DNA of 64,000 nt from Ornithinicoccus hortensis (lineage in GTDB: Bacteria; Actinomycetota; Actinomycetes; Actinomycetales; Dermatophilaceae), in the NCBI RefSeq assembly GCF_006716185.1, contig NZ_VFOP01000001.1:1798001-1862000 (forward strand), read 5' to 3'. A program made the position numbers and the translations under genes. The notes beneath the pieces were generated by a model, which was not told where the DNA came from, searched no databases, and was given only the letters and a program-made list of their open reading frames with translations. Shown here piece after piece: positions 1 through 15,185 of this stretch (positions are counted from its first letter, which is position 1; the number at the start of each line of letters is the position of its first letter).

Positions 1-819
1 GTGCCAGCAGTTCTCGGGGACGGCATCGACGATGTCCTGTACGCGCAGGTCGACGGGGAAGCCGAAGGAGAACCCGACCCCGGCCTTGCGGCACGCGGCG
101 GCGAACGCGTGCGTGGCACCGGCGGAGTCGGACCGGGCCAGCACCCGCGGGCCCTCGGCATCACCCGGACGGGGTCGGGCGTGCTCGGGCAGCGCGGCCA
201 GCGCCATGTCCAGCACCGCGATGTGGTCGGCGGCGGTGTTGGACCCGGCGTTGCCCTTGCGCAACAACCCGGCCAGCGCCTCCCCGCCGGCGATCTGTGG
301 GCGGTCCAGGAAGGCCAGCAGCGGATGGAAGCCGAAGGTGCGCTTCCAGGTCGCGGCCGCGTTCTCCTTCTCCGAGTGCGCGATGGTGATCGTGGCGTCG
401 AAGTCGATCGCCAGCTCCTGGGAAAGGTCCGGCCCCGCCCCGGCCGCCCACGCCCGCTCCCGCGCGAGCGACCGTGCCGCCCGCACCGCGCCCAGGTGGT
501 CGGCATCGACCCGGTCCAGGACCCGCCACGCGGTCGGCATGGAGGCCACCGGCCCGAAGATCCCTTCCCGGTCGCCCAGCACCTCGATCCCGGTGATCGC
601 ATCCGCCCCGTCGGCCACGGCGACCGCGACATCGGTCAGCACCCGGCCCGGGGCATGGATCCACGGCCCACGGTAGGTGTCGGCCAACGCCCCGTCCAGG
701 GCCTCGACCAGGCCGGTGTCCTCGGCCACCTCCCGCAACATCCCCAGCCCGGCGTGCGACACGACGCCCTCACCATCGGCGCTGACCTTCACCCGTCGGA
801 CCGACCCGTTACGCTTCAC
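1..819 (-). CDS. IS1380-family transposase, N-terminal 273 residues (runs off window)
   Basis: DDE transposase of the IS1380 type, which would catalyse cut-and-paste movement of the element. The minus-strand frame opens with GTG at 817-819, preceded by an AAGGAG ribosome site at 831-836, and stays open to base 1, so the C-terminus is missing. Recognisable stretches are LAIDFDATITIAHSEK, ATWKRTFGFHPLLAFLDR, VLARSDSAGATHAF and GFSFGFPVDL, all typical of the family; the Asp in DFDATI and the Asp in RSDSAG fit the first two catalytic positions. The overlapping plus-strand frame across the same bases is its shadow. Completeness of the copy cannot be judged here. Confidence 0.85.
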   Translation of the reverse strand, partial: MKRNGSVRRVKVSADGEGVVSHAGLGMLREVAEDTGLVEALDGALADTYRGPWIHAPGRVLTDVAVAVADGADAITGIEVLGDREGIFGPVASMPTAWRVLDRVDADHLGAVRAARSLARERAWAAGAGPDLSQELAIDFDATITIAHSEKENAAATWKRTFGFHPLLAFLDRPQIAGGEALAGLLRKGNAGSNTAADHIAVLDMALAALPEHARPRPGDAEGPRVLARSDSAGATHAFAAACRKAGVGFSFGFPVDLRVQDIVDAVPENCWH

Positions 820-824
820 CTGAG

Positions 825-892
825 AAGTGCTCCTTGAACTGTGACGACGTGAACTCTTGACAAGTCACATCATCCCAGTTCAGGAGCACTTT
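825..892 (-). repeat. Inverted repeat sequestering the transposase ribosome site
   Basis: Arms AAGTGCTCCTTGAACT (825-840) and AGTTCAGGAGCACTT (877-891) are complementary apart from one bulged base. On the minus strand the inner arm contains the AAGGAG ribosome site of the transposase. A transcript entering from flanking DNA would fold the site away. A transcript starting between the arms would not; a TTGTCA-like -35 lies there on the minus strand. This matches the known strategy of IS elements for avoiding activation by outside transcription, but the fold is inferred. Confidence 0.55.
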
Positions 893-942
893 TCACGTCA
901 ACTCAAGGACCGTGCCGCACCACCCACGTGAAACACCGAGGC

Positions 943-948
943 TAGGGT
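943..948 (+). promoter_or_regulatory. Predicted -10 element of the defence operon (leaderless start)
   Basis: TAGGGT lies exactly 7 nt before a GTG at 956, the same arrangement seen at many other genes in this window (for example 40931, 45510 and 52441). It implies transcription beginning at or next to the start codon and favours GTG 956 over the GTGs at 947 and 950. No convincing -35 hexamer is visible at the usual distance. Confidence 0.5.
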
Positions 949-955
949 GGTGCGC

Positions 956-3724
956 GTGGGAGAACTGAAGCGCAAGCTGATCGAGGTCGCCCTCCCGCTG
1001 GAGGCGATCAACAAGGAGTCGGCGAGGGAGAACTACATCTACAGGGGAAACCCATCGTCGGTGCACAAGTGGTGGGCGCAGCGCCCGCTCGCGGCAGCCC
1101 GTGCCGTGCTGTTCGCCCAGCTCGTCGATGACCCGTCCGCGCGGCCGGACGAGTTCCCCACCGAGGAGGACCAGCGCCGCGAGCGCGAGCGCCTCCACGG
1201 ACTGATCGAGCGCCTCGTCAGGTGGGAGAACGTCCGCGACGAGAAACTCCTCGCCGAAGCCCACGCCGAGATCCTCAAGTCCACCGACGGCAACCCGCCG
1301 CCGATCCTCGACCCGTTCGCCGGCGGCGGCACCATCCCGCTCGAAGCGCAGCGCCTCGGCCTCGAAGCCCACGCCTCCGACCTCAACCCGGTCGCGGTAC
1401 TCATCAACAAGGCACTCATCGAGATCCCGCCGAAGTTCCGCGACCAAGCCCCTTCCTATCCTGACCTCGCCGACTCCGAGATCCGCGACTGGAAGGGCGC
1501 TGAAGGGCTCGCAGCCGATGTCCGCGCTTACGGCGGCTGGATGCGTGACGAAGCCGAGAAGTGGACCGGTCATCTCTACCCGAAGGCAACTCTCGACGAT
1601 GGCACCCAAGCGAACGTCATCGCTTGGATCTGGGCTCGTACCGTGACCTGCCCCAACCCTGCCTGCGGCATCGAAATGCCACTGGTCCGCTCCTGGTGGC
1701 TGGGCAAGAAGAGGGGCAAGGAGGCGTACGTCGTCCCCACCGTCGTGGGTGATCCGGACCACCCCTCGGGCCAGCGAGTGCAGTTCGACATCGGGCACGA
1801 CAAGGCTGGTTCACCGACCAAGGAGACCGACGGCACCGTCGGCCGAAATGGTGCCTTCTGCATCGCCTGCGAGACCGCGGTCGACTTGAAGTACGTCCGA
1901 GCTGAGGGTCGCGACGGGCGTACGGGGCAAACACTGATGGCCGTGGTCGCCGAAGGCAACCGCTCCCGCGCATATGTGGCGCCAGATCAGGTCCACTCTT
2001 TGGCAGCAGATGTACCCCGTCCGGATGACCTTCCTGACCCTTCGATCCCGGATCAGGCGCTTGGCTTCCGGGTGCAGGCGTACGGCATGACGAAGTGGGT
2101 AAATCTCTTCACCAACCGCCAACTGGTGGCGCTGACCACCTTCAGCGACCTGGTCTCCGAGGCCAGGGAGAAGGTTCGCGCCGACGGCGGCACGCCGGAG
2201 TACGCCGACGCCGTCGCGACTTACCTCGCATTTTCTGTCAGCAAGCTGGCTGACTATGGGAACTCGCTTGCGGTTTGGTATCCGAAGGAGGATCGCCCGA
2301 AGAATCTGTTTGCCCGACAGTCCATCCCGATGGTGTGGGACTTCCCCGAAGTCAACCCGCTGTGTGACATAGGGGGAAGCTGGTCACGTTGCGTGCAGGT
2401 GGTCAGCCAGGGCTTCGCGGAGCTCGTACCGGCGACGAGTGGCGTTGCGCAACAGGCAGATGCCTCGGCGCGGTCGTACTTGGGGGCAGTCGTGAATACA
2501 GACCCTCCGTACTACGACAACATTGGCTACTCGGACCTGTCCGACTTCTTTTATGTCTGGTTGCGCCGTGCCCTCCGGAAACAGTATCCAGACCTACTCT
2601 CGACGATGCTCGTGCCCAAGGCAGAAGAGCTCGTGGCAAACCAGTATCGACATGGTGGAAAATCTGCGGCCAATGGCTTCTTCGAGTCGGGATTCAGACG
2701 CGTGTTTGCGAAGGTGCGTGAGAGTGCCGCAACTCACGCACCTATGGTCGTGTGGTACGCCTTCAAACAGAGTGAGAAGTCAGACGCTGGAGAGACCTCA
2801 TCCGGGTGGGAGACCCTGCTCGAAGGTATGATCCGCTCAAATTGGGAGATCACTTCAACGTGGCCAGTTCGAAGCGAGCGTTCCAGTCGAGCGGTCGGGT
2901 TGGGCACGAACGCGCTGGCGTCATCGATCGTCCTCTCGCTCCGTCCGCGCGCAGAAGATGCGCGGACCACTGACAGGCGTGGCTTCATCGCAACGCTTGA
3001 GGCGGAGTTGCCTGACGCTCTCCGCAAGCTTCAGCAGGGCCTGATCGCGCCTGTTGACCTGCCCCAGGCCGCCATCGGTCCCGGCATGGCGGTGTTCAGT
3101 CGCTACAGCGCGGTCCTTGAACCGGACGGCACGAAGATGACTGTGCGGGCTGCCTTGTCCAGGATCAACGAGATCCTCGATCAGGTTCTAAATGAACAGG
3201 AAGGCGACTTCCACGCGACGACCAGGTTCGCTCTGGCGTGGTACCGGCAGCACGGGTACGCGGTGGGCGATTTCGGCGACGCCAACACTCTCGCGAACGC
3301 TCGCAACACGAGCGTGGATGCGATGGCCCGCGCGGGCGTGCTGACCTCCGCTGCGGGCAAGGTGCAGTTGATTCGTCCCGAGGACATGCCGGCCGACTAT
3401 GACGTGCTGGCCGACGAGTCGACCAGCGGCTGGGAGGTCCTGCACCACCTGATCCGCCTTCTGAACACCGGTGGCGTCCAGGCAGCGGGATCATTCCTTG
3501 CGACCGCACTCAGCCGTCCGGAGGGGGACATCGAGGCCGACCTCATCAAGGAACTTGCCCACCTCGTCTTCCGCGTCAGTGAAAAGAACGGCTGGACCAA
3601 GGAAGCCCTCGACTGCAATACCGTCGTCACCAGCTGGCCCGAGATCCTCGACGCCTCCCGCGAGGTCGGCAAGGCCACCAGTGAGCAGGGCGAGATCGAC
3701 TTCGACGAGGTCACCGAGTCATGA
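956..3724 (+). CDS. DUF1156 adenine-specific DNA methyltransferase with Zn-binding Cys pairs (defence operon gene 1)
   Basis: About 922 residues from GTG 956; a start at 947 would add three. Predicted N6-adenine DNA methyltransferase (COG1743/DUF1156 type) that would mark self DNA. The N-terminus has the family's LIEVALPLEAIN and KWWAQRPLAAAR blocks. The AdoMet-binding motif DPFAGGG is near residues 119-125, and the catalytic DPPY near 516-519 is followed by YDNIGYSDLSDFFYVWLR. Cys pairs near 232/237 and 302/305 form a split zinc ribbon. The stop overlaps the next gene (ATGA). The middle of the gene, about 2200-2950, is much lower in GC than its ends. The family is known from defence islands next to DUF499 ATPases. 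Confidence 0.9.
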   Translation: MGELKRKLIEVALPLEAINKESARENYIYRGNPSSVHKWWAQRPLAAARAVLFAQLVDDPSARPDEFPTEEDQRRERERLHGLIERLVRWENVRDEKLLAEAHAEILKSTDGNPPPILDPFAGGGTIPLEAQRLGLEAHASDLNPVAVLINKALIEIPPKFRDQAPSYPDLADSEIRDWKGAEGLAADVRAYGGWMRDEAEKWTGHLYPKATLDDGTQANVIAWIWARTVTCPNPACGIEMPLVRSWWLGKKRGKEAYVVPTVVGDPDHPSGQRVQFDIGHDKAGSPTKETDGTVGRNGAFCIACETAVDLKYVRAEGRDGRTGQTLMAVVAEGNRSRAYVAPDQVHSLAADVPRPDDLPDPSIPDQALGFRVQAYGMTKWVNLFTNRQLVALTTFSDLVSEAREKVRADGGTPEYADAVATYLAFSVSKLADYGNSLAVWYPKEDRPKNLFARQSIPMVWDFPEVNPLCDIGGSWSRCVQVVSQGFAELVPATSGVAQQADASARSYLGAVVNTDPPYYDNIGYSDLSDFFYVWLRRALRKQYPDLLSTMLVPKAEELVANQYRHGGKSAANGFFESGFRRVFAKVRESAATHAPMVVWYAFKQSEKSDAGETSSGWETLLEGMIRSNWEITSTWPVRSERSSRAVGLGTNALASSIVLSLRPRAEDARTTDRRGFIATLEAELPDALRKLQQGLIAPVDLPQAAIGPGMAVFSRYSAVLEPDGTKMTVRAALSRINEILDQVLNEQEGDFHATTRFALAWYRQHGYAVGDFGDANTLANARNTSVDAMARAGVLTSAAGKVQLIRPEDMPADYDVLADESTSGWEVLHHLIRLLNTGGVQAAGSFLATALSRPEGDIEADLIKELAHLVFRVSEKNGWTKEALDCNTVVTSWPEILDASREVGKATSEQGEIDFDEVTES

Positions 3725-5559
3725 TCGCGGCAGCCGTCGAGAGCGAGTGGACGCGCGACTATGCGGCGTTCATGCGTTGTGACGCCGGTGACGAATGGCT
3801 GCCTCGGGCTGCGGAGCAGGTGGGGAAGTGGCTCCGGGAGAAGGGGTTCGGCGATGTTGACCTGAACACCGATCAAGACCTCGTCGCGAAGGGTGCTCGC
3901 CTCGCTATTCGCGCAATCCGCGACGACGCCGCGCAGGACTTCCGGATCCGGATGGTCGAGGAGAACGACGGCGGGACGTGGGCCACTGACCTCGTCGCCC
4001 ACGACGCGCCCGGCGAGTCTGACTGGGTCCACGTCACGGTCGCGAACAAGGAGGGCAACTACGCGAGCGTTCCGCGCGTGGCGAAGTACCTGATGGGTGC
4101 GCTACCGCTCGGCGACGGCAAGCTCGAACTGCGCGAAGAACCGGTCGTTCACCACACTGCGGACCTCGATCTCCTTGTCGAGCTGCTAGCCGACCGAGAG
4201 CGCCACGGGCTCGTCCTGGTGGCCGGCACGACAGCCGCTGACGGGATCCCGTTCGACAAGTTCCGGGAAGCTGTTGGCGACTGGACCCGTGACGTAGCGG
4301 GGTTGGCTCAGGTCGTCGTGCTCGATCCCATCGCAACCCAGGAGTTCGCAAACCGGGTGGGGGAGCGGTTCAAGGCCCCTGCTTGGACCATTCGCACCTA
4401 TCAGCCCGGTGTCGACTTCGACGACCCGGCGAGTTCGAGGCACCACCGGATGATGGGCACGGCGCGGTTGGCCAATCAGAAGCCGGGCCGCACCCGACAC
4501 CTCCTTGGCGAGATCGCGCGTAATCATGCCGCCAAGCGTGGACTGCCGGTGGAGGTCCAGCGGGTCCGGCGCCGGTTCGAGCGACACGAGAATCGCCGGC
4601 TCGTCCAGACGCTGGGCCAACCCGAACTCGAGCTGGGGCTTGAGACCAAGGAAGCACCTCAGCTCCCGCTGAAGGTCGAGAAGCGGTCGGCGGCGAAGGC
4701 CGGTAGGGAACGGCTTGGCCGAGCAAAGGAGCAGCTTGCGGAAATCGCGCTGGTCAAGCGCATGCTCAAGCTCGAGGAGATCACAGAGGCGAGCCTTCGG
4801 GGCATCGCCGACCGAATTGCGCGCGTCGGTTCTCACCAGCAGGCTATGCAGCAGTTCCAAGACCGGGTGGACCAGCTGCAGGTGCGCGTCGAGAGGCTGG
4901 AAGACGAGGGTGTAGACCTTCGCGAGGCGCTCGACACCGCGCAGCTCGAGGCCGAGGACGCCAAGCTGGACCTCGACAAACGGGATGGACGTATCAGGTG
5001 GCTCGAGTCGCGACTGCGAGATGCGGGTGACTACGAGGCTGGCTATGCAGAGGTGCCAGACGAGTACAGGGTCGAGCGTCCCGACAGCTTCGAGGACCTC
5101 ATCAAGCAGATCGAAGACCTTGACGGCGTCGAATTCACGGGCGCGATGGACGACGTGGACAAGCTCAATGCCATCGACACCAACGAGGCTGCACTGCGTA
5201 CGGCCTGGGAGGCGGTGCTGACGCTTGCGGACTACGTCAAAGCGCGTGCAGCCGGGGACTGCGACAACGGGCTCGATCACTACATCAAACACACGCCGAC
5301 CGGATACCGCACGATTTCGCCGGGAAAATGGGCCCACACCGAGACTGCCCAAACCATGAAGGGCTGGGGCGGCGAGCGCATCTTCCCCGTGCCTGCCTCC
5401 GTAGACGTAGCGGAGCGTGCTGAGATGAAGGCTCACTTCAGGCTCGCCCAGATCGGGATGGAGTCGCCCCGCATGTACATCCTCGACTGCCACCCGAAGC
5501 AGCCGATGGTCTACGTCGGCTACATCGGCACGCACCTGACCAACACGAAGACCAACTGA
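3721..5559 (+). CDS. Unrecognised coiled-coil protein of the defence operon (gene 2)
   Basis: 612 residues, starting at ATG 3721, which overlaps the methylase stop by 4 nt, so the two are probably translationally coupled. I do not recognise the family. Residues 1 to about 250 look globular and mixed alpha/beta (blocks DWVHVTVANKEGNYASVP and QVVVLDPIATQEF). A basic, Arg-rich segment lies near 255-300 and a long heptad-rich coiled coil at roughly 330-440. A compact C-terminal domain near 500-612 ends with MYILDCHPKQPMVYVGYIG. No Walker, helicase, PLD or clear nuclease motif is visible. It occupies the slot where related loci carry other partners, so it may be a scaffold or sensor (inference). 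Confidence 0.75.
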   Translation: MIAAAVESEWTRDYAAFMRCDAGDEWLPRAAEQVGKWLREKGFGDVDLNTDQDLVAKGARLAIRAIRDDAAQDFRIRMVEENDGGTWATDLVAHDAPGESDWVHVTVANKEGNYASVPRVAKYLMGALPLGDGKLELREEPVVHHTADLDLLVELLADRERHGLVLVAGTTAADGIPFDKFREAVGDWTRDVAGLAQVVVLDPIATQEFANRVGERFKAPAWTIRTYQPGVDFDDPASSRHHRMMGTARLANQKPGRTRHLLGEIARNHAAKRGLPVEVQRVRRRFERHENRRLVQTLGQPELELGLETKEAPQLPLKVEKRSAAKAGRERLGRAKEQLAEIALVKRMLKLEEITEASLRGIADRIARVGSHQQAMQQFQDRVDQLQVRVERLEDEGVDLREALDTAQLEAEDAKLDLDKRDGRIRWLESRLRDAGDYEAGYAEVPDEYRVERPDSFEDLIKQIEDLDGVEFTGAMDDVDKLNAIDTNEAALRTAWEAVLTLADYVKARAAGDCDNGLDHYIKHTPTGYRTISPGKWAHTETAQTMKGWGGERIFPVPASVDVAERAEMKAHFRLAQIGMESPRMYILDCHPKQPMVYVGYIGTHLTNTKTN

Positions 5560-5569
5560 GGGGGAGCGG

Positions 5570-7417
5570 ATGGGCTTCCAGACACCGCAGCACGGCTTGG
5601 GCAGCTATCTGGAGTGGACCACGTCTGGGAAGATCCAACTGCCGGACTTCCAGCGCGGCTACAAGTGGGAGGACGAGCGGATTCGGCAGCTCCTCGTCAC
5701 CATCCTCCGCGGCCACCCGATGGGCGTGGTCATGCTGCTGGACACCGGTAGCAACGAGGTGCGCTTCAAGCCGCGCCCCATCGAGGGCGTCGATGCAACC
5801 GCCTGCGATCCGCCCGAGCACCTGCTGCTGGATGGCCAACAGCGGCTGACATCACTGACTCAGTCACTGACGGGTGACGGAGTTGTCGACACGAAGGACA
5901 GCCGCGGAAAGCTGATGCGGCGGCGCTACTTCGTCCACATGGCCATGGCCCTGGACGGCGAGGATCGGCTCGACGAGGCCGTGATCTCTGTTCCCGCTGA
6001 CGGCAGGATCAAGGAGAACTTCGACCGCGACATCGTGCTCGACCTCTCTACGCCCGAGCTGCAGCGGAAGAACGGTTACTTCCCCTTGTCATTGCTCTAC
6101 AACAGCTCCTCGGCGACCGAGTGGCTCTTCGACGTGGAGGACCGCGACCTCGGCCGGGACTTCCACTCCAAGATCGTGGCCGAGGCCGGAAAGTACTCGA
6201 TCCCCGCCATCCAGCTCGACAAGCGGACCAGCAAGGCGGCCGTTGCGACCGTCTTCGAGAAGGTCAACACCGGCGGCCTCCCGCTGAACGTGTTCGAACT
6301 CCTCACCGCCACTTTTGCCGGAGACAAGGCCTACTACGACGAGCACGGCACAGACTTTCGGCTCAACGACGACTGGCTGGAGACGCAGCAGAAGTTCTCG
6401 TCGCACCCCGTCCTGGCCGGCCTGGAAAACACCGACTTCCTGCAGGCCGTCACCCTCCTCGCTACGCGCAAGCGCAATCTGGCCGACACCAGCGCCAGGC
6501 CGACCGCGGTGTCGGCGAAGCGCGAGGATGTCCTCAAGCTGGACCTCAGCGACTACCTGGAGTGGGTCAGCCCGCTGCGGGAGGCCTTCATCTGGGCAGC
6601 GAGTTTCATGGCCGACCGGCACATCTTCGACACCAAGTTCTTGCCGTATCCGAAGCAGTTGGTGCCGCTCGCGGCGATCAAGGTCGTGATGGGAGCCGAT
6701 GCCGACCTGATTGGCGTTCGCGACCGCATCGTCCAGTGGTTCTGGTGTGGGATCCTCGGCGAGCTCTATGGCGGCGCCATCGAAACCCGGTTCGTGCGTG
6801 ACCTGCAGCAGGTGCCCGCCTGGGCACGGGGCGAGGAAGGCGCTGCCACGCCGAACACCGTCCAGGACGCGACGTTCGTTGAGTCGCGGCTCCACTCGCT
6901 GCGGACTCGGAACGCAGCCGCGTACAAGGGAATCTATGCACTGCTCCTCGCCAACGAGGCGCGTGACTGGATGGAGGACAAGCAGCTCGACAAGGTGCAG
7001 TACGTCGATCTGGATCTCGACATCCACCACATCTTCCCGAAGAAGTGGTGCAACGACGGACAGATCGACGACGAGCACCGCGAGTCCATCATCAACAAGA
7101 CCGCCATCAGCGCCCGCACCAACCGGGTGATCGGCGGTGCAGCCCCATCGGGATACCTGAGGGTCATCGAGGACAAGGCGCAGATCTCAGCAGACAAGCT
7201 GGACGCGCTTCTCGAGTCGCACCTAGTACCCAGCGATCTGCTCCGTGCAGACGACTTCGACGGCTACTTCGCAGAGCGAAGAGAGCGGTTGTGCAGGCTG
7301 GTGGAGAAGGCAATGGGCAAGGCGGTTCCCCGCGACCTCGACAGAGGTGAAGCGTCGGAGGCGTCCGACAGCTTCGATACGGCCGAGGTCTCGGAGATGA
7401 TCGAGGAGCAGGATTGA
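5570..7417 (+). CDS. DUF262/DUF1524 (GmrSD-like) HNH nuclease of the defence operon (gene 3)
   Basis: 615 residues, starting 10 nt after gene 2 with a strong GGGGGAG ribosome site. The N-terminal DUF262 (ParB/Srx-like) domain shows LPDFQRGYKWEDERI near residue 23 and the nucleotide-binding DGQQRLTSL at about 88-96. The C-terminal DUF1524 HNH domain shows DIHHIFPKKW, with the His pair at 486-487, followed by NKTAISARTNR. This is the domain order of GmrSD type IV restriction enzymes, where DUF262 uses NTP and the HNH domain cuts DNA. Here it is the obvious nuclease candidate of the operon. Whether it targets modified or unmodified DNA cannot be seen. Confidence 0.88.
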   Translation: MGFQTPQHGLGSYLEWTTSGKIQLPDFQRGYKWEDERIRQLLVTILRGHPMGVVMLLDTGSNEVRFKPRPIEGVDATACDPPEHLLLDGQQRLTSLTQSLTGDGVVDTKDSRGKLMRRRYFVHMAMALDGEDRLDEAVISVPADGRIKENFDRDIVLDLSTPELQRKNGYFPLSLLYNSSSATEWLFDVEDRDLGRDFHSKIVAEAGKYSIPAIQLDKRTSKAAVATVFEKVNTGGLPLNVFELLTATFAGDKAYYDEHGTDFRLNDDWLETQQKFSSHPVLAGLENTDFLQAVTLLATRKRNLADTSARPTAVSAKREDVLKLDLSDYLEWVSPLREAFIWAASFMADRHIFDTKFLPYPKQLVPLAAIKVVMGADADLIGVRDRIVQWFWCGILGELYGGAIETRFVRDLQQVPAWARGEEGAATPNTVQDATFVESRLHSLRTRNAAAYKGIYALLLANEARDWMEDKQLDKVQYVDLDLDIHHIFPKKWCNDGQIDDEHRESIINKTAISARTNRVIGGAAPSGYLRVIEDKAQISADKLDALLESHLVPSDLLRADDFDGYFAERRERLCRLVEKAMGKAVPRDLDRGEASEASDSFDTAEVSEMIEEQD

Positions 7418-7418
7418 C

Positions 7419-10400
7419 ATGGCACTGAGCAACCGCGACCGCATCAACAAGATGTTCGAGATCATGGCGCCGGCCCTGGATGACTTCATCTCGGCGCAGA
7501 TCGGGGCGGTACATGCCGCTGCTGGGCCGAAGTGGGCGGAGCTGGTCCGGGCCAAGGACGGCGCTGGGTCAGAGAAAGACTATGACCCTCGCGATCCGCA
7601 GGTCCAGTTCCGGATGCTGACCGAGAAGAACATCTGCACCAAGGTCAAGCAGGGCTGGTACCCGTTCAGCGATGCGCTCGGCCGGACTGGCGAATCGTTC
7701 GCCAGCGAGCTCCGGGATGTGCGGAACACGTGGGCGCACAATGGGTCGTTCACCGACGACGACGCCTACCGGGCGCTCGACACGGGGGAGCGACTTCTCT
7801 CGCTGATCGGCGCTGCCGACGAGGCCGCGCAGGTGAAGGACGTTCGCCTCAACCTGCGCCGTGTCACCGCGGACAAGGACGACAAGCGCTCGCTCAAGAC
7901 CGCGGCCGGGGACAACCCCGAGGCCGAAGGTCTCAAGCCGTGGCGTGAGGTGCTCCAGCCGCACGATGATGTCGCGACCGGCAACTTCCATGCGTCTGAA
8001 TTCGCGGCTGATCTCTACAAGGTCGCGACCGGCGGCGAGGTCGACTCGGACTACGCCGACCCCGTCGAGTTCTTCAAACGCACCTACCTCACTGAAGGTC
8101 TCAGCGACCTCATCGGTCGCGCGGTGCGCCGCCTCTCCGGGGACGAGAACGCGTCGCCGGTCATCAACCTGCAGACCAACTTCGGTGGCGGCAAGACGCA
8201 CTCGATGCTGTCGCTGTGGCACGTCGCCGCTGGCCTGCCCGTGGGCGACTACCCGCAAGAGACACAAGAGTTGCTCCTTGCCAACGACTACAAGGGCGAC
8301 AAAGTCAACCGCGTCGCCATCGTCGGCAACCACACCAGCCCGTCCGGTGTCATCAAGGACGACGGCACCCAGGTCAACACGATCTGGGGCGAACTCGCCT
8401 GGCAACTCGGCGGCGCCGAAGCGTATGCGGTTGTCGCCAATGCCGATCGGGACCGGACGCTTCCTGGCGACGCACTGCACGAGCTCTTGAAGAAGTACGC
8501 ACCTGCTGTCATCTTGATCGATGAGTGGGTTGCCTATGCACGCTCTCTCGTTGGACGCGACGATCTTGCTGGTGGCACGTTCGACGATCAGTTCACGTTC
8601 GCTCAGTCGTTGACCGAGGCGTCGAAGGGCACGCCAGGGGTGTTGCTGGCGATCTCGATCCCTGCCTCGGAGAGTGGGGACGACTCGGAGATCGCGACTG
8701 GGAATGCCGAGGAGGTCGGCGGGGCCAATGGCTTGGAGGCTCTCAAGCGGCTCCAGAACGTGGTCCGTCGCGTGGCCGACCAGTGGCGTCCGGCGTCCTC
8801 GGACGAGGCGTACCACATCGTCAAGCAGCGGCTCTTCAAACAGCCCGACGCCGCCGCACTCGCCACGATCGGCGCCACCGCACGGGCATACGTCGAGATG
8901 TACCGCAAGTACACCGACGACTTCCCCCGCGGGGCTCGCGACGCGTCGTACGAGGACCGCATCAAGCGCACATATCCGATCCACCCCGAGCTGTTCGACA
9001 CGCTCTATGAGGAATGGTCGTCACTGGAGCGGTTCCAGCGCACCCGTGGCGTGCTGCGCCTGATGAGCACCGTTATCCACGCACTCTGGACGGGCGAGGA
9101 CGCCTCGCCGCTGATCATGCCCGGGTCGATCCCGCTCGCCACGGCGGACGTGAACGCTGAGCTGACCCAGTACCTCCAGGACTCGTGGAAGGCGATCATC
9201 GACGCCGATGTCGATGGCCCGAACTCCGAGCCGGGACGCATCGACAAGGAGAAGCCGCTCTTCGGGCAGCGTGCGTTGACGAAGCGTCTGGCGCGGACCG
9301 TGTTCTTCGGGGCCGCGCCGACGATCGCGCCGGGCTCGACCCACAAGGGCATCGGCACTCAGCGAGTGTTCCTCGGCACCGCCGTACCCGGTGACGTGCC
9401 CGGCAACTTCCACGCCGCGCTGACGCAGCTCGGTGACCGGGCGACGTACTTCTACTCCGGCTCGGGCAAGCACTGGTACGACCTGCAGCCCAACATCACC
9501 CGAACGGCGAAGGACCAGGCCGAGCGCCTCCACAAGGAGGACGTCTGGGCCGAGATCGTGCGCCGGCTCCAGGGCCAGGGACGCACCCGGGGTGACTTCG
9601 CCGGCGTACACGTGTGCCCAGAGACGAATGCCGACATCCCGGACACCGACGAGGCACGGCTGGTGATCCTCCACCCGAAGGTCGCGCACAAGGGCAAGAA
9701 GGACTCCGAGGCCAAGGAGTTCGCACACAAGGCGACCGAACAGCGGGGGAGTGCCAACCGGACCAACCGGAACACGGTGGTCTACCTTGCCGCCGACGAG
9801 GCCCGCCGCGAAGAGCTGGATGCCGCGACGCGGGACTACCTCGGCTGGAAGCACGTCCTCGACAACGAGGCCGACCTCGACCTGACCCAGAACCAGAAGA
9901 ACCAGGCAGCCCAACGCCGCGACCAGGCCGACCAGACCGTGACCTCGCGGCTGCTGCAGACCTTCACCTGGGCGCTCGTACCCATGCAGCCCGACCCGGG
10001 CTCGCCGTTCCTCATCCGCGAGACCAAGGTCGAGGGCCAGTCCGAATCTCTCGCGGAACGCGTGTCACGGCGTCTCGGGAACGACGGGGACCTGTCCACA
10101 CGCCAAGCAGCCGCCACGATCCGGCTGGCGATCAGCAACGTGCCGCAGATCTGGAAGGACGGCCACGTTTCACTCGGCGCACTCTGGGGCCTGTACGCGC
10201 AGTACCCCTATATGCCTCGGTTGCGTGACCGGAAGGTGCTCGACGAAGGCATCGTCGACCTCCCGATGATCTGGCAGACCGACGCATTCGCCCTTGCGAC
10301 CGGGTACGACGAGGACGCGGGACGCTACATCGGACTGTGGACCCCGGAGGACAAGGGGCCGGCGCCGGTTGCCACGGACACGCTGCTGCTGGTCCGCCCG

Positions 10401-10778
10401 GATGTTGCCACCAAGCAGCGTGAGGCGGAGTCTGCAGCGAAGGCGTCGCCCGAAGAGCAGGTCGCAGATCTCATCGATCAGCACGGGGGGACTGCAGAGC
10501 GCGACCCGTCGGCACCGAGGGTCGACGTTGTCTACCCGAAGGCCAAGACTCGCTTCTTCGGCGTCAAGACCCTCAACTCCAGCAAGATCGCGATCGACTT
10601 CAAGAACATCGCCGACGAGGTCATCGCCAACCTCCGCGCCGACGACGGCACCGAGCTGACCGTCCGCATTGAGATCGAAGCCACCAACACCAGCGGGTTC
10701 GAGGACGGCAAGATCCGTACCGTCTCGGAGAACGCCAAGACGTTGAAGTTCGATCAGTCCGGGTTCGAGGAAAGCTGA
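7419..10778 (+). CDS. Swt1-type HEPN-DUF499 AAA+ ATPase of the defence operon (gene 4)
   Basis: 1119 residues, starting one base after the stop of gene 3. The N-terminal ~130 residues form a HEPN domain of the Swt1 type, with the RNase signature R-N-T-W-A-H at 102-107. The DUF499 ATPase (COG1483) follows: Walker A NFGGGKTHS near 254-262 and Walker B ILIDEW near 365-370. The C-terminal third is probably a substrate or partner platform. DUF499 ATPases occur with DUF1156 methylases in defence islands. The intact HEPN motif suggests RNA cleavage when the ATPase senses infection, which is inference. No frameshift or truncation is visible. Confidence 0.9.
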   Translation: MALSNRDRINKMFEIMAPALDDFISAQIGAVHAAAGPKWAELVRAKDGAGSEKDYDPRDPQVQFRMLTEKNICTKVKQGWYPFSDALGRTGESFASELRDVRNTWAHNGSFTDDDAYRALDTGERLLSLIGAADEAAQVKDVRLNLRRVTADKDDKRSLKTAAGDNPEAEGLKPWREVLQPHDDVATGNFHASEFAADLYKVATGGEVDSDYADPVEFFKRTYLTEGLSDLIGRAVRRLSGDENASPVINLQTNFGGGKTHSMLSLWHVAAGLPVGDYPQETQELLLANDYKGDKVNRVAIVGNHTSPSGVIKDDGTQVNTIWGELAWQLGGAEAYAVVANADRDRTLPGDALHELLKKYAPAVILIDEWVAYARSLVGRDDLAGGTFDDQFTFAQSLTEASKGTPGVLLAISIPASESGDDSEIATGNAEEVGGANGLEALKRLQNVVRRVADQWRPASSDEAYHIVKQRLFKQPDAAALATIGATARAYVEMYRKYTDDFPRGARDASYEDRIKRTYPIHPELFDTLYEEWSSLERFQRTRGVLRLMSTVIHALWTGEDASPLIMPGSIPLATADVNAELTQYLQDSWKAIIDADVDGPNSEPGRIDKEKPLFGQRALTKRLARTVFFGAAPTIAPGSTHKGIGTQRVFLGTAVPGDVPGNFHAALTQLGDRATYFYSGSGKHWYDLQPNITRTAKDQAERLHKEDVWAEIVRRLQGQGRTRGDFAGVHVCPETNADIPDTDEARLVILHPKVAHKGKKDSEAKEFAHKATEQRGSANRTNRNTVVYLAADEARREELDAATRDYLGWKHVLDNEADLDLTQNQKNQAAQRRDQADQTVTSRLLQTFTWALVPMQPDPGSPFLIRETKVEGQSESLAERVSRRLGNDGDLSTRQAAATIRLAISNVPQIWKDGHVSLGALWGLYAQYPYMPRLRDRKVLDEGIVDLPMIWQTDAFALATGYDEDAGRYIGLWTPEDKGPAPVATDTLLLVRPDVATKQREAESAAKASPEEQVADLIDQHGGTAERDPSAPRVDVVYPKAKTRFFGVKTLNSSKIAIDFKNIADEVIANLRADDGTELTVRIEIEATNTSGFEDGKIRTVSENAKTLKFDQSGFEES

Positions 10779-10802
10779 ACGAGAAGGCGAGCAAAGGGAA
10801 CG

Positions 10803-11423
10803 ATGTCTGATCCAGACGATCCGATCAGCCAGTCGACTCAGCGATTCCTCGCAGGCGACATGTCTGACGAACTTGAACGACACTGCCGCAACGTTGGACG
10901 AATCGCCGTCGAATTCGCCTGCCTCGAGGAGCGCATCGGGAAAGTGCGCGCGGCTCTCGATCCGGGTGCCCGAGCGTCCCAGGACTATATGAAGCATGTC
11001 GCCTCCGTGGGCGCGCTCAAGCAGGCGTTCAAAGAGTTGAAGCGTTCGAGCATCGTGGACATCGATACCGCGGACATCGAGGAGTCGTACTGGCGCTTCA
11101 AGCAGGAGCGGGACCGCTTTGCGCACGCCGCCGTCGGTTCCACGATGGAACAGCGGGCCGACGGGGTCCACGAGTTGATGAACAATCGCCTGAAGCATGC
11201 AAAGAGCGCTGCTATCACGGATCTCCCGAGCGATGACGAGGCCGACGAGCTGGTCAGGGAGATCCGCGCGGTGCAACTCAAACTGTTCTTTGAGCCGTCG
11301 CGGCTCATGATTCTCCACGCGAATCGGCATTCCGCTGACGTAGCGAAGCAGACGCTTGCACAGGTTGTCGAGGCTCCGGGCCGCGTCGCTCGGGAGGCGA
11401 TCGCGCGCATTTGGCGCGACTGA
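10803..11423 (+). CDS. Small HEPN-like protein closing the defence operon (gene 5)
   Basis: 206 residues from ATG 10803, 24 nt after gene 4, with an AAGGGA ribosome site. No named family is recognised. It is predicted all-helical. Residues 103-108 read R-D-R-F-A-H in the context RFKQERDRFAHAAVG, which fits the R-x4-H motif of HEPN RNases at the expected place late in a helical bundle. The upstream block VEFACLEERIGKVRAALD resembles the first helix of such proteins. Co-directional, closely spaced genes suggest it belongs to the operon as an accessory toxin or partner. GC is slightly lower than in core genes. Confidence 0.65.
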   Translation: MSDPDDPISQSTQRFLAGDMSDELERHCRNVGRIAVEFACLEERIGKVRAALDPGARASQDYMKHVASVGALKQAFKELKRSSIVDIDTADIEESYWRFKQERDRFAHAAVGSTMEQRADGVHELMNNRLKHAKSAAITDLPSDDEADELVREIRAVQLKLFFEPSRLMILHANRHSADVAKQTLAQVVEAPGRVAREAIARIWRD

Positions 11424-11488
11424 CTGACAGGTGTCCGCGTACGTCACACTGTCACGCGGGCTGGTCGGGATGTCCATGCGGGCAAGGG

Positions 11489-11512
11489 GAGCTTCGGATC
11501 GATCCGAAGCTC
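11489..11512. terminator. Perfect 24-bp palindrome between converging genes
   Basis: Half-site GAGCTTCGGATC followed immediately by its exact complement. It lies between the defence operon (plus) and the integrase stop (minus), overlapping the last bases of the integrase frame. It could be a bidirectional hairpin terminator, although no T-tract follows, or a protein-binding site linked to recombination. Confidence 0.5.
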
Positions 11513-12686
11513 AAGGAGCGTTGCACGCGGCAGGTGCTCGAGCACCTGCCTCCTTGTGATCTGTCAACGCCGAGTCGACCGCAGTACGGGTCCGTTCGTC
11601 GCTACTCGGCATCAGATGCGTGTAGGTGCGCAGCGTGAAGCCGGGGTCGCTGTGCCCGAGGTACTCGGATACTGCGCGGATCGACTCGCCGGCGTCCAGC
11701 AAGACTGAGGCGTACCAGTGGCGAAGGGCGTGCATGCCGTTCTCGCGGGTGGGCACGACTCCCGCGGTCGCCTGAGCGCGACGCCAGAGGTTGCCGTTGA
11801 AGTAGTTGCGGTTGAGGGGGCGGCGTTCGCGGGTGGTGAGCACGAGCGGTACGCGCACGCTCTCGCCGCTGTTGAGCGTCCGCCACGGCAGTTCCACAGG
11901 CATGGCCCGGAATCGCGCGAGGTATGAGCTCAGCTCGTCGGCGACGGTCTTCGGGAGCGGGACGGTTCGGGTCTTGCGGCCCTTCGGCAGCGAGAACACC
12001 AGCTTGTTGCCGGCGAGGATCTTGACCTGGCGGCGTACTTCGACGGTGCCGCGGAGGAAGTCAACGTCGTCGGGGGAGAGGCCGAAGACCTCGCCCTGCC
12101 GCAGGCCGAGGCCCGACCCGAGAGTGACGGCGATCTGGTAGCGCTCCGGAAGGGCGTCGTGCATCGCGCTGACCCATTCGGCGGGCCAGGGCACGACCTT
12201 GCGGCGTACGACCTTGGGGCGTGCAACTGAGCCGGCCTTGCACGGGTTCTTGGCGATCAGGTCGTCGTCGACCGCGGCGCCGAAGATCGCCGACACGTTG
12301 GAGAGGATCATCCGCTTGTAGGTGTCGGACAGGTCCATCGACGCGATCAGGCGTTGGATCGTCGACGGCTTGATCTGCCGGAGCTGCATCTGCCCGAGGA
12401 TGGGAAGCACATGGAGGCGCAGTCGCAGTTCGGTCGCCTCGTACGTCGTCTCCTCGAAGGTGCGGCCGGCCAGCCACTCGGCGGCGTACTCGCTGAACGT
12501 CACGCGCCCGGCGTCGACGTCGATGTAGGTGCCGCGGAGCTTGTCAGCCTCGACGGTGTTGCGGAACCTCTCCGCCTCGCCCTTTCGGCGGAAGCTCTTG
12601 CGGCGTTGTCGGTTGTCGAGATCGCGGTAGTTGACGACGTAGCGCGGGCTGCCGTCATTCGCCTTCGTGGTGGTCAGGCTGGCCAT
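11511..12686 (-). CDS. int: Tyrosine recombinase (phage-type integrase)
   Basis: 391 residues from ATG 12684-12686, with a GAGGAG ribosome site. Site-specific recombinase of the lambda-integrase family that would insert and excise the mobile region. An N-terminal Arm-binding segment (RYVVNYRDLDNRQRRKSFRR) is followed by a SAM-like core-binding domain (about 65-150) and a catalytic domain with the full set: R196 in LGLRQGEV, H319 and R322 in HALRHWYAS, H345 in YLGHSD, and the nucleophile Y355 in RTYTHLM. Apparently intact. It points away from the genes at 12.8-21 kb, which probably form its cargo. No duplicated attachment core was found by eye. Confidence 0.92.
   Translation of the reverse strand: MASLTTTKANDGSPRYVVNYRDLDNRQRRKSFRRKGEAERFRNTVEADKLRGTYIDVDAGRVTFSEYAAEWLAGRTFEETTYEATELRLRLHVLPILGQMQLRQIKPSTIQRLIASMDLSDTYKRMILSNVSAIFGAAVDDDLIAKNPCKAGSVARPKVVRRKVVPWPAEWVSAMHDALPERYQIAVTLGSGLGLRQGEVFGLSPDDVDFLRGTVEVRRQVKILAGNKLVFSLPKGRKTRTVPLPKTVADELSSYLARFRAMPVELPWRTLNSGESVRVPLVLTTRERRPLNRNYFNGNLWRRAQATAGVVPTRENGMHALRHWYASVLLDAGESIRAVSEYLGHSDPGFTLRTYTHLMPSSDERTRTAVDSALTDHKEAGARAPAACNAP
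11529..11550. repeat. Perfect 22-bp palindrome inside the integrase 3' end
   Basis: Half-site GGCAGGTGCTC plus its exact complement, inside the codons for the integrase C-terminal tail (EAGARAPAA). Two perfect palindromes within 62 bp suggest a terminator pair or a recombination-associated site. Function is not determined. Confidence 0.5.
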
Positions 12687-14390: not shown

Positions 14391-15185
14391 TCAGTGCTCG
14401 AAGCGGCTCGACCAGTCGTCGCTCGAGGGCGGGTCCAGAAGGCCTGCAGTTGTTGCCCTTATGAGCGCCGCTGTCAGTCGCTCGTCGAGTCGGTCGACGG
14501 TGGCGCGCCAGACATCCGAGCCGAGCGCCTCGCCCATCGAGCGGAAGGCGTCCACGGCGACTGAGGCGCAGCGCAACTCCAGAGTGTCGCCGAGGCTTCG
14601 AGGAGATCGGAGCAGATGGTATCGGTCGCTCCCCACGACGACGTAGGGAGCAGCGCTCGCCTGGGTGGCGTGACTGGTCGCGGTCTCACTCAGCCACGCC
14701 ACGTATAGGTCGAAAGCCTTGGCAACCTTGAACCGATTCTCAATCTTCCATTCCCCGTCCACCGAACCTTCAGGGATTTCCTGTGCAGCGAGCTCGTCGA
14801 ACACCGCATCGAGCTCCGGCGACCACTCGGTGCGTCCGAGCTGTTTCTCCTGCTCGTTGGAGGCAGCTACCGCACTTTGGACATTTGCTGCCCAACGCTG
14901 GTGACTGCGACCCAAGGCGAAAAGGGCATCGTGACCGAGTTGTCGGAGCCACCTCATGCCCACGGCATGCTCCATGGCCGACCGAACCAGCGGATCGGCC
15001 ACACGGCCCAGCCCCTGGTCGTGCAGCACCAGAGCCGCGTTGATGCTGTCGACGCAGCGAACAAACCATGCGTGGGTGAGAGCGAGCTCAGAATCTGTAG
15101 TGACGGTGCGGAGGTCGCGGTCCGCCATGCGCGGCAACTCATTCAGTACGTCGCGCAGGGACTGACCACTCACGGGTTCAGACAT
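14391..15185 (-). CDS. Hypothetical all-helical protein, DUF5677-like
   Basis: 264 residues from ATG 15183-15185. The N-terminal segment ALVLHDQGLGRVADPLVRSA followed by MEHAVGMRWL resembles the helical core of DUF5677-type proteins (an Arg-x4-Glu-rich helix following an H-containing helix). The rest is helical with no catalytic motif I can name. A CACACT hexamer 6 nt upstream may be a weak leaderless -10. It lies in the integrase cargo region and its role is unknown. Confidence 0.65.
   Translation of the reverse strand: MSEPVSGQSLRDVLNELPRMADRDLRTVTTDSELALTHAWFVRCVDSINAALVLHDQGLGRVADPLVRSAMEHAVGMRWLRQLGHDALFALGRSHQRWAANVQSAVAASNEQEKQLGRTEWSPELDAVFDELAAQEIPEGSVDGEWKIENRFKVAKAFDLYVAWLSETATSHATQASAAPYVVVGSDRYHLLRSPRSLGDTLELRCASVAVDAFRSMGEALGSDVWRATVDRLDERLTAALIRATTAGLLDPPSSDDWSSRFEH

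Follow-up and report, generated by a model that had tools for sequence, protein, structure and literature searches.

A probable Hma-type defence locus with a distant helicase gene and embedded cargo genes in Ornithinicoccus hortensis

The locus and its core genes

Do the genes at the start of a 64,000-nucleotide stretch of the Ornithinicoccus hortensis genome (contig NZ_VFOP01000001.1; G000:C1:1798001-1862000, hereafter the window) encode a new kind of defence system, or a known one that is only partly in view? An earlier note, made from the sequence alone, had described a five-gene defence operon at 943-11423, in which a coiled-coil protein and a GmrSD-like nuclease replace the helicase of related systems. 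When the upstream stretch of the same genome (labelled L002) is included, the locus is best read, with a probability of about 0.8, as an Hma, or Type-1 BREX-related, defence system, with its helicase gene hmaA split off by two insertions of IS1380 elements (IS, insertion sequence) and with embedded cargo genes. The genes concerned are:

hmaB (gene 1), 947..3724, plus strand: DNA methyltransferase with a DUF1156 N-terminus; PADLOC HmaB, 1033 bits
gene 2 (P0002), 3721..5559, plus strand: coiled-coil protein; PADLOC matches to HEC-07 (partial) and NsnC
gene 3 (P0003), 5570..7417, plus strand, between hmaB and hmaC: DUF262 (GmrSD_N, E 2.5e-28) with a C-terminal HNH-like nuclease
hmaC (gene 4), 7419..10778, plus strand: Swt1-like HEPN fused to a DUF499 AAA+ ATPase; PADLOC HmaC, 878 bits
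gene 5, 10803..11423, plus strand: 206-residue orphan, coding-like, all-helical, with an Rx4H motif
hmaA, G000:C1:1788221-1791766 (L002:9221-12766), outside the window, same strand as hmaB: PADLOC HmaA, 1320.7 bits

The five open reading frames (ORFs) of the window are closely packed, genes 1 and 2 overlapping by 4 nt and the following gaps measuring 10, 1 and 24 nt, and all five show a coding-like contrast in GC content between third and second codon positions. The array of the earlier note is therefore kept as five packed coding ORFs, with its start moved to 947, as position 943 falls in a CTAG repeat. The domain assignments also hold: DUF1156 (E 1.3e-25) in HmaB, DUF262 in gene 3, HEPN_Swt1 (E 7.8e-30) and DUF499 (E 6.6e-31) in HmaC, and a long coiled coil in gene 2. 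The PADLOC match of HmaB spans residues 8-913 and includes the motifs DPFAGGGT and DPPY, whose columns are invariant across seven HmaBs. HmaC is matched over residues 172-1118; across ten HmaCs, R102 is conserved in at least 90%, while H107, GGGK and IDE are invariant. Searches of PDB sequences with HmaB, the gene 3 protein and HmaC gave no matches.

The helicase said to be absent is encoded upstream. HmaA matches its PADLOC profile almost from end to end (residues 46-1155 on profile positions 2-1149 of 1176), contains SNF2, Helicase_C and NOV_C (E 5e-17) domains, and retains the Walker A motif GAGKT, DEAH and EVK. Thus hmaA, hmaB and hmaC are all present at full length in one genome with intact motifs, and a new, helicase-free system is rejected because HmaA was found. 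The end of hmaA and the start of hmaB are 7,180 bp apart, with the two IS1380 copies and other ORFs between them.

Relation to described systems

The composition, which the earlier note could not match to a described type, corresponds in all three core proteins to Hma. This system is named in PMC8565338, where HmaB is called a 5-methylcytosine (m5C) methylase, and is reclassified in PMC12839542 as Type-1 of the DUF499-centred BREX-related systems, with HmaB called an N6-adenine methylase. The HEPN-fused variant of HmaC and a helicase with a C-terminal nuclease domain are further points of likeness. In PMC12839542, DUF499 ATPases fused to HEPN are counted in 1370 taxa, and HNH nucleases of the GmrSD type are auxiliary effectors; HEPN-DUF499 proteins with restriction-modification components were described in 2013 (PMC3710099). 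The present locus differs in the 7,180 bp, with two IS1380 copies and ORFs, that separate hmaA from hmaB, and in the two cargo genes in the hmaB-hmaC slot. PglZ and BrxL of canonical BREX were absent from the five window and ten upstream proteins scanned.

GmrSD-like genes embedded in Hma are likewise on record. As cited in PMC11411939, a 2024 preprint by Payne found them as HEC-05 (BrxU) and HEC-06; the HEC concept is described in PMC12111858 and PMC12988326, which also refer to that work. BrxU is reported alongside BREX (PMC8565348), and BrxU and TgvAB are treated as type IV complements (PMC11411939; PMC12839542). Gene 3 resembles HEC-05 and HEC-06 in lying among Hma genes and in encoding a DUF262 protein that ends in an HNH-like domain, but its profile matches are local and weak and it belongs to a separate clade. 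TgvAB, a GmrSD-like pair within a type I restriction-modification locus (PMC11411939), also places a type IV-like DUF262 enzyme inside a modification-based system; its partner TgvA is itself a DUF262 protein, whereas gene 2 is not. Gene 2 shares one domain with HEC-07 of PADLOC (residues 110-275), but lacks a full-length match, and its C-terminal domain matches NsnC instead. Hence Hma as a system type and GmrSD-like genes embedded in it are already described, while the literature found has no match for gene 2, for the orphan gene 5 or for the combination of these two inserts.

The interval between hmaA and hmaB

The upstream interval and its junction with the window contain the following features:

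281-residue ORF, overlapping the end of hmaA: no Pfam family
181-residue ORF, next in the interval, minus strand: no PADLOC match
IS1380-type element, first copy, L002:14221-15880
SIR2-like ORF, L002:15810-17024, minus strand: ThsA-type match, partial profile match only
PDC-S26-like PD-(D/E)XK ORF, ending at L002:18279: PADLOC E 2e-13, PDDEXK_4 E 9.4e-9
IS1380-family element, copy b, about L002:18280-19941 (window -720 to 941), its right part at window 1..941, minus strand: DDE_Tnp_1_4, E 8.6e-47
CTAG, 942-945: right-hand 4-bp target repeat flanking IS1380-b

The transposase ORF of IS1380-b terminates within the window, and the element has the ends CCTCGG... and ...CCGAGG with CTAG at both sides. 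The PDC-S26-like ORF has its stop codon within the left CTAG (L002:18276-18279), while hmaB starts 1 nt past the right CTAG, 5 bp beyond the end of the element. Both frames are thus still open after the insertion. The two IS1380 copies have the same orientation, are 84.6% identical, and enclose the SIR2-like and PDC-S26-like ORFs; this recalls a composite element, yet each copy has its own CTAG and looks independently inserted. The 3' end of the SIR2-like ORF extends into the first copy.

A single predicted promoter for the five genes, as claimed before, is not borne out. A sigma-70 consensus scan of window positions 600-11600 found 0 sites (mean of 1.0 in shuffled sequences), and a TTGACA at 857-862 falls within IS1380-b. 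Members of the IS1380 family can provide outward promoters.

Comparison across Hma loci

A scan with an HmaB alignment provided the best 79 distinct named loci of at least 556 matches. To these were added 18 loci from the order, fetched from 18 of the 21 other HmaB-bearing genomes (G141, G293 and G312 were omitted), giving 97 other Hma loci, 95 of them distinct (L098 equals L146, and L101 equals L165). Both hmaB and hmaC could be placed in 89 loci, corresponding to 87 distinct ones.

HmaA is detected in 77 of the 97 loci, or in 77 of the 85 whose sequence extends 8 kb or more upstream of hmaB; of the 20 without it, 12 have at most 4.2 kb upstream and eight have 8.3-13.5 kb. Distances within Hma loci vary: hmaB and hmaC lie at most 300 bp apart in 61 of 89 loci and more than 900 bp apart in 26, and the corresponding numbers for hmaA and hmaB are 40 and 27 of 76 same-strand loci. 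The gap of 7,180 bp compares with a maximum of 5,523 bp among the 76 gaps measured elsewhere. In the 52 loci with long matches to all three Hma proteins, identities to the proteins of the present locus are correlated (rho 0.76 for HmaA and HmaC, 0.81 for HmaA and HmaB, 0.83 for HmaB and HmaC). Among the 79 named loci, the eight nearest by HmaA (79-89% identity) have HmaC at 77-87% identity and HmaB at only 58-66%. At about residues 250-500 of HmaB, identity among close Hma relatives is far below that of the rest of HmaB, of HmaA and of most of HmaC; in the six of these eight loci that were plotted it falls to 38-52% there, the lowest stretch outside the last 25 residues. This is consistent with a swapped target-recognition region. 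Because HmaA and HmaC identities track together while HmaB diverges centrally, the distant hmaA probably belongs to the system and HmaB probably carries its specificity, a pattern that would fit one machine with a diverging specificity region in HmaB.

Slots and flanks of Hma loci also hold foreign genes. Nine such ORFs were scanned, of which two had no PADLOC match and seven matched PADLOC families, namely Orf5/HEC-06, PDC-S02 (twice), a CBASS-type cyclase, a pAgo-like protein, MzaB and an OLD-like ATPase. In L094, a CBASS-type cyclase-like ORF is located between hmaA and hmaB (L094:12612-13679; PADLOC E 3.8e-154). In the close relatives L119, L120, L122, L127, L134 and L143, hmaB adjoins hmaC and the slot is free of inserts; L124 contains a DUF262 insert only, L157 a DUF262 fragment, and the window two inserts. 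The exact five-gene order, whose recurrence the earlier note had proposed to check, is found in 0 of the 89 other fetched loci holding both hmaB and hmaC. On this count a conserved five-gene unit is rejected, although the order hmaB-DUF262-hmaC does recur. Of the three findings that the earlier note named as refuting its reading, a match to a described type and a helicase gene beyond the IS1380 element are both seen, and the lack of a conserved gene order elsewhere is largely borne out. Genes 2 and 3 are cargo within the hmaB-hmaC slot.

Gene 3, a GmrSD/BrxU-like protein

Gene 3 encodes a GmrSD/BrxU-like protein, a predicted type IV nuclease. Invariant in 14 homologues are DGQQR (D88-R92), HH (H486-H487), N509 and N518. 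A DUF262 protein of any kind is present in 15 of the 97 Hma loci and lies within the hmaB-hmaC slot in seven of 89 (L090, L091, L092, L121, L124, L166 and, as a fragment, L157). The slot proteins of L092 and L121 belong to another DUF262 clade than gene 3, and the best HmaC match in L166 spans merely 439 of 1119 residues. The fragment at L157:12773-13006 has the appearance of a decayed insert.

Among the 296 other order genomes, 16 have relatives of the gene 3 type, and 14 of these 16 were examined (G014 and G162 were omitted). Two of these 14 loci have the gene in the hmaB-hmaC slot (L090, L091), while 12 have no hmaB or hmaC nearby, which marks gene 3 as separable cargo. Its relatives in 12 other loci are 47-75% identical and form a separate clade.

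Gene 2, the least understood part of the locus

Gene 2 is a member of an actinobacterial coiled-coil family that, by its sequence, shares one domain with HEC-07. It consists of an alpha/beta N-terminal part, a long coiled coil at about residues 362-434 and a conserved C-terminal domain at about 550-612. PADLOC HEC-07 is matched over residues 110-275 (E 3.1e-18; profile positions 136-302 of 553) and not at full length, and NsnC over residues 452-607 (E 1.5e-5); among 15 family members, 13 match HEC-07 and 12 match NsnC. The literature search found no papers on NsnA-C or HEC-07. Naming the protein via Pfam was rejected, as the only matches were coiled coils below the curated cut-off, and so was naming via PDB sequences, where the profile matches were again coiled coils. 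With the AlphaFold model (predicted local distance difference test, pLDDT, 71.5), Foldseek returned 0 matches at E 0.001 or better (the best had E 4.2e-3, and a thioredoxin-like match ranked 16th at E 0.039), so no fold is claimed.

A genome-contig scan with gene 2 alone as the query found no relative. At E 0.001, 18 of the 296 other order genomes have a relative; at E 1e-10, so do 46 of the 393 other genomes in a class sample, some of which belong to the order. Loci were fetched for all 18 and for 20 of the 46, respectively. Gene 2 homologues lie near Hma in ten of the 97 loci: eight of the 79 named ones (L123, L130, L132, L133, L140, L144, L147 and, with a partial match, L197; an earlier tblastn count gave seven of 79) and two of the 18 from the order, L035 and L092, the latter directly after hmaC. 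In none of the other 89 loci is gene 2 between hmaB and hmaC. The class-level locus L233 also has it directly after hmaC, and in L032 a homologue adjoins an N6-methylase gene. At L044:6357-12157, BrxL, a gene 2 homologue and a GmrSD-type protein are encoded consecutively, which places gene 2 beside a BREX gene too.

It is conceivable, though rather doubtful, that gene 2 founds an undescribed accessory family distinct from HEC-07, which would move between Hma, BREX and N6-methylase loci and trigger a nuclease such as the DUF262-HNH protein.

Weighing the readings

Several observations count against a complete, working Hma system with a type IV insert. The helicase is not universal: eight of the 85 loci with sufficient upstream sequence have no detectable hmaA (L125, L133, L136, L144, L172, L180, L096 and L035), and hmaB-hmaC pairs without it may act with something else. 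In the present locus, hmaA and hmaB are not contiguous and the native upstream context of hmaB has been lost, which makes expression of the whole system uncertain; the scan found no promoter. The two papers disagree on the base modified by HmaB, PMC8565338 giving m5C and PMC12839542 N6-adenine. As for gene 3, a GmrSD_C (DUF1524) Pfam match is absent at E 0.1, and HEC-05 of PADLOC is matched only locally (E 1.9e-13, residues 17-133 of 615).

The opposite extreme is a single, dedicated machine of five parts, genes 1 to 5, with the helicase replaced by gene 2 and the DUF262-HNH protein. It draws on the close spacing and translational coupling of these genes and on the eight hmaA-less loci, three of which (L133, L144, L035) have a gene 2 homologue near hmaB. 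It is nevertheless highly improbable: a full-length hmaA exists in the same genome, the exact order and gene 2 in the hmaB-hmaC slot both occur in 0 of 89 loci, and genes 2 and 3 occur apart, with HmaB near gene 2 homologues in one of 18 order loci and one of 20 class loci. Slightly better placed, though still improbable, is the view that the Hma arm is a relic, with expression of hmaA and hmaB disconnected by IS1380, and that only the embedded DUF262-HNH protein and gene 2 still work as stand-alone defence. In its favour are the two IS1380 copies, of which the second stops 5 bp short of hmaB, the SIR2-like ORF that runs into the first copy with partial profile matches, and the locus L180, where only short helicase-like ORFs precede hmaB. 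Against it, the three Hma frames and the examined motifs are intact, and the stop codon upstream of the insertion and the start codon of hmaB are both still in place.

Gene 2 and the DUF262-HNH protein could also be a two-protein type IV system, as TgvA and TgvB are, embedded in Hma. In L044 a gene 2 homologue adjoins a GmrSD protein, and in L045 one lies near such a protein; both agree with this, as does DUF262 in five of 18 order-level gene 2 loci and in four of the ten gene 2-bearing Hma loci, compared with the 15 of 97 overall. However, DUF262 is found in 0 of 20 class-level gene 2 loci, none of the 12 stand-alone loci of the gene 3 type is reported to have gene 2 nearby, and PMC11411939 describes HEC-05 and HEC-06 as acting on their own, so this pairing is unlikely. 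The preferred reading thus remains an Hma system with a distant hmaA and embedded cargo.

Gene 5 and the island context

Gene 5 has 0 homologues in 296 other genomes of the order (E 0.001), none in plasmids and nothing above cut-off in Pfam. The proposal that it is HEPN-like is not confirmed: it draws on RDRFAH at residues 103-108 and on a poor all-helical model (mean pLDDT 48.8) unfit for structure search, and a HEPN assignment is a guess. The next gene is:

tyrosine-recombinase integrase, 11511..12686, minus strand: Phage_integrase, E 4.4e-18

The integrase is probably part of a mobile island and outside the defence machine. GC content is 0.63-0.70 in window 1-24000, against 0.68-0.76 over most of the next 30 kb, to 54 kb; this lower GC and the integrase suggest a mobile island. 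A search for attachment repeats gave nothing usable, and comparison of the upstream flank did not fix the island ends. Downstream of the integrase lies a DUF5677-type gene (window 14391-15185, minus strand), barely above the Pfam cut-off.

Proposed function and implications

The layered defence of the earlier note is a fair reading of a locus that brings together DNA modification, a nuclease of the DUF262-HNH type and an ATPase in which HEPN is fused to DUF499. HmaB would methylate host DNA, its variable central region specifying the target sequence, while HmaC (AAA+) and HmaA (an SNF2 helicase with a C-terminal NOV_C/DUF3883 nuclease) would scan for and destroy unmodified DNA, and the HEPN RNase fused to HmaC would serve as a backup. 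The DUF262-HNH enzyme is a candidate modification-dependent type IV nuclease that would catch phages able to evade the Hma arm through their modified DNA. Gene 2, the second accessory, would move independently and might serve as a sensor or as a partner protein.

The locus illustrates how a known system can look new through a window edge and IS insertions. Gene 2 is widespread in actinobacteria and found beside several modification-based systems; if it does trigger a nuclease, the window locus would be an Hma system into which a type IV gene pair has been inserted. With relatives that have no insert, a DUF262 insert only or a fragment, and with two inserts in the window itself, the Hma loci offer a clean case of embedding.

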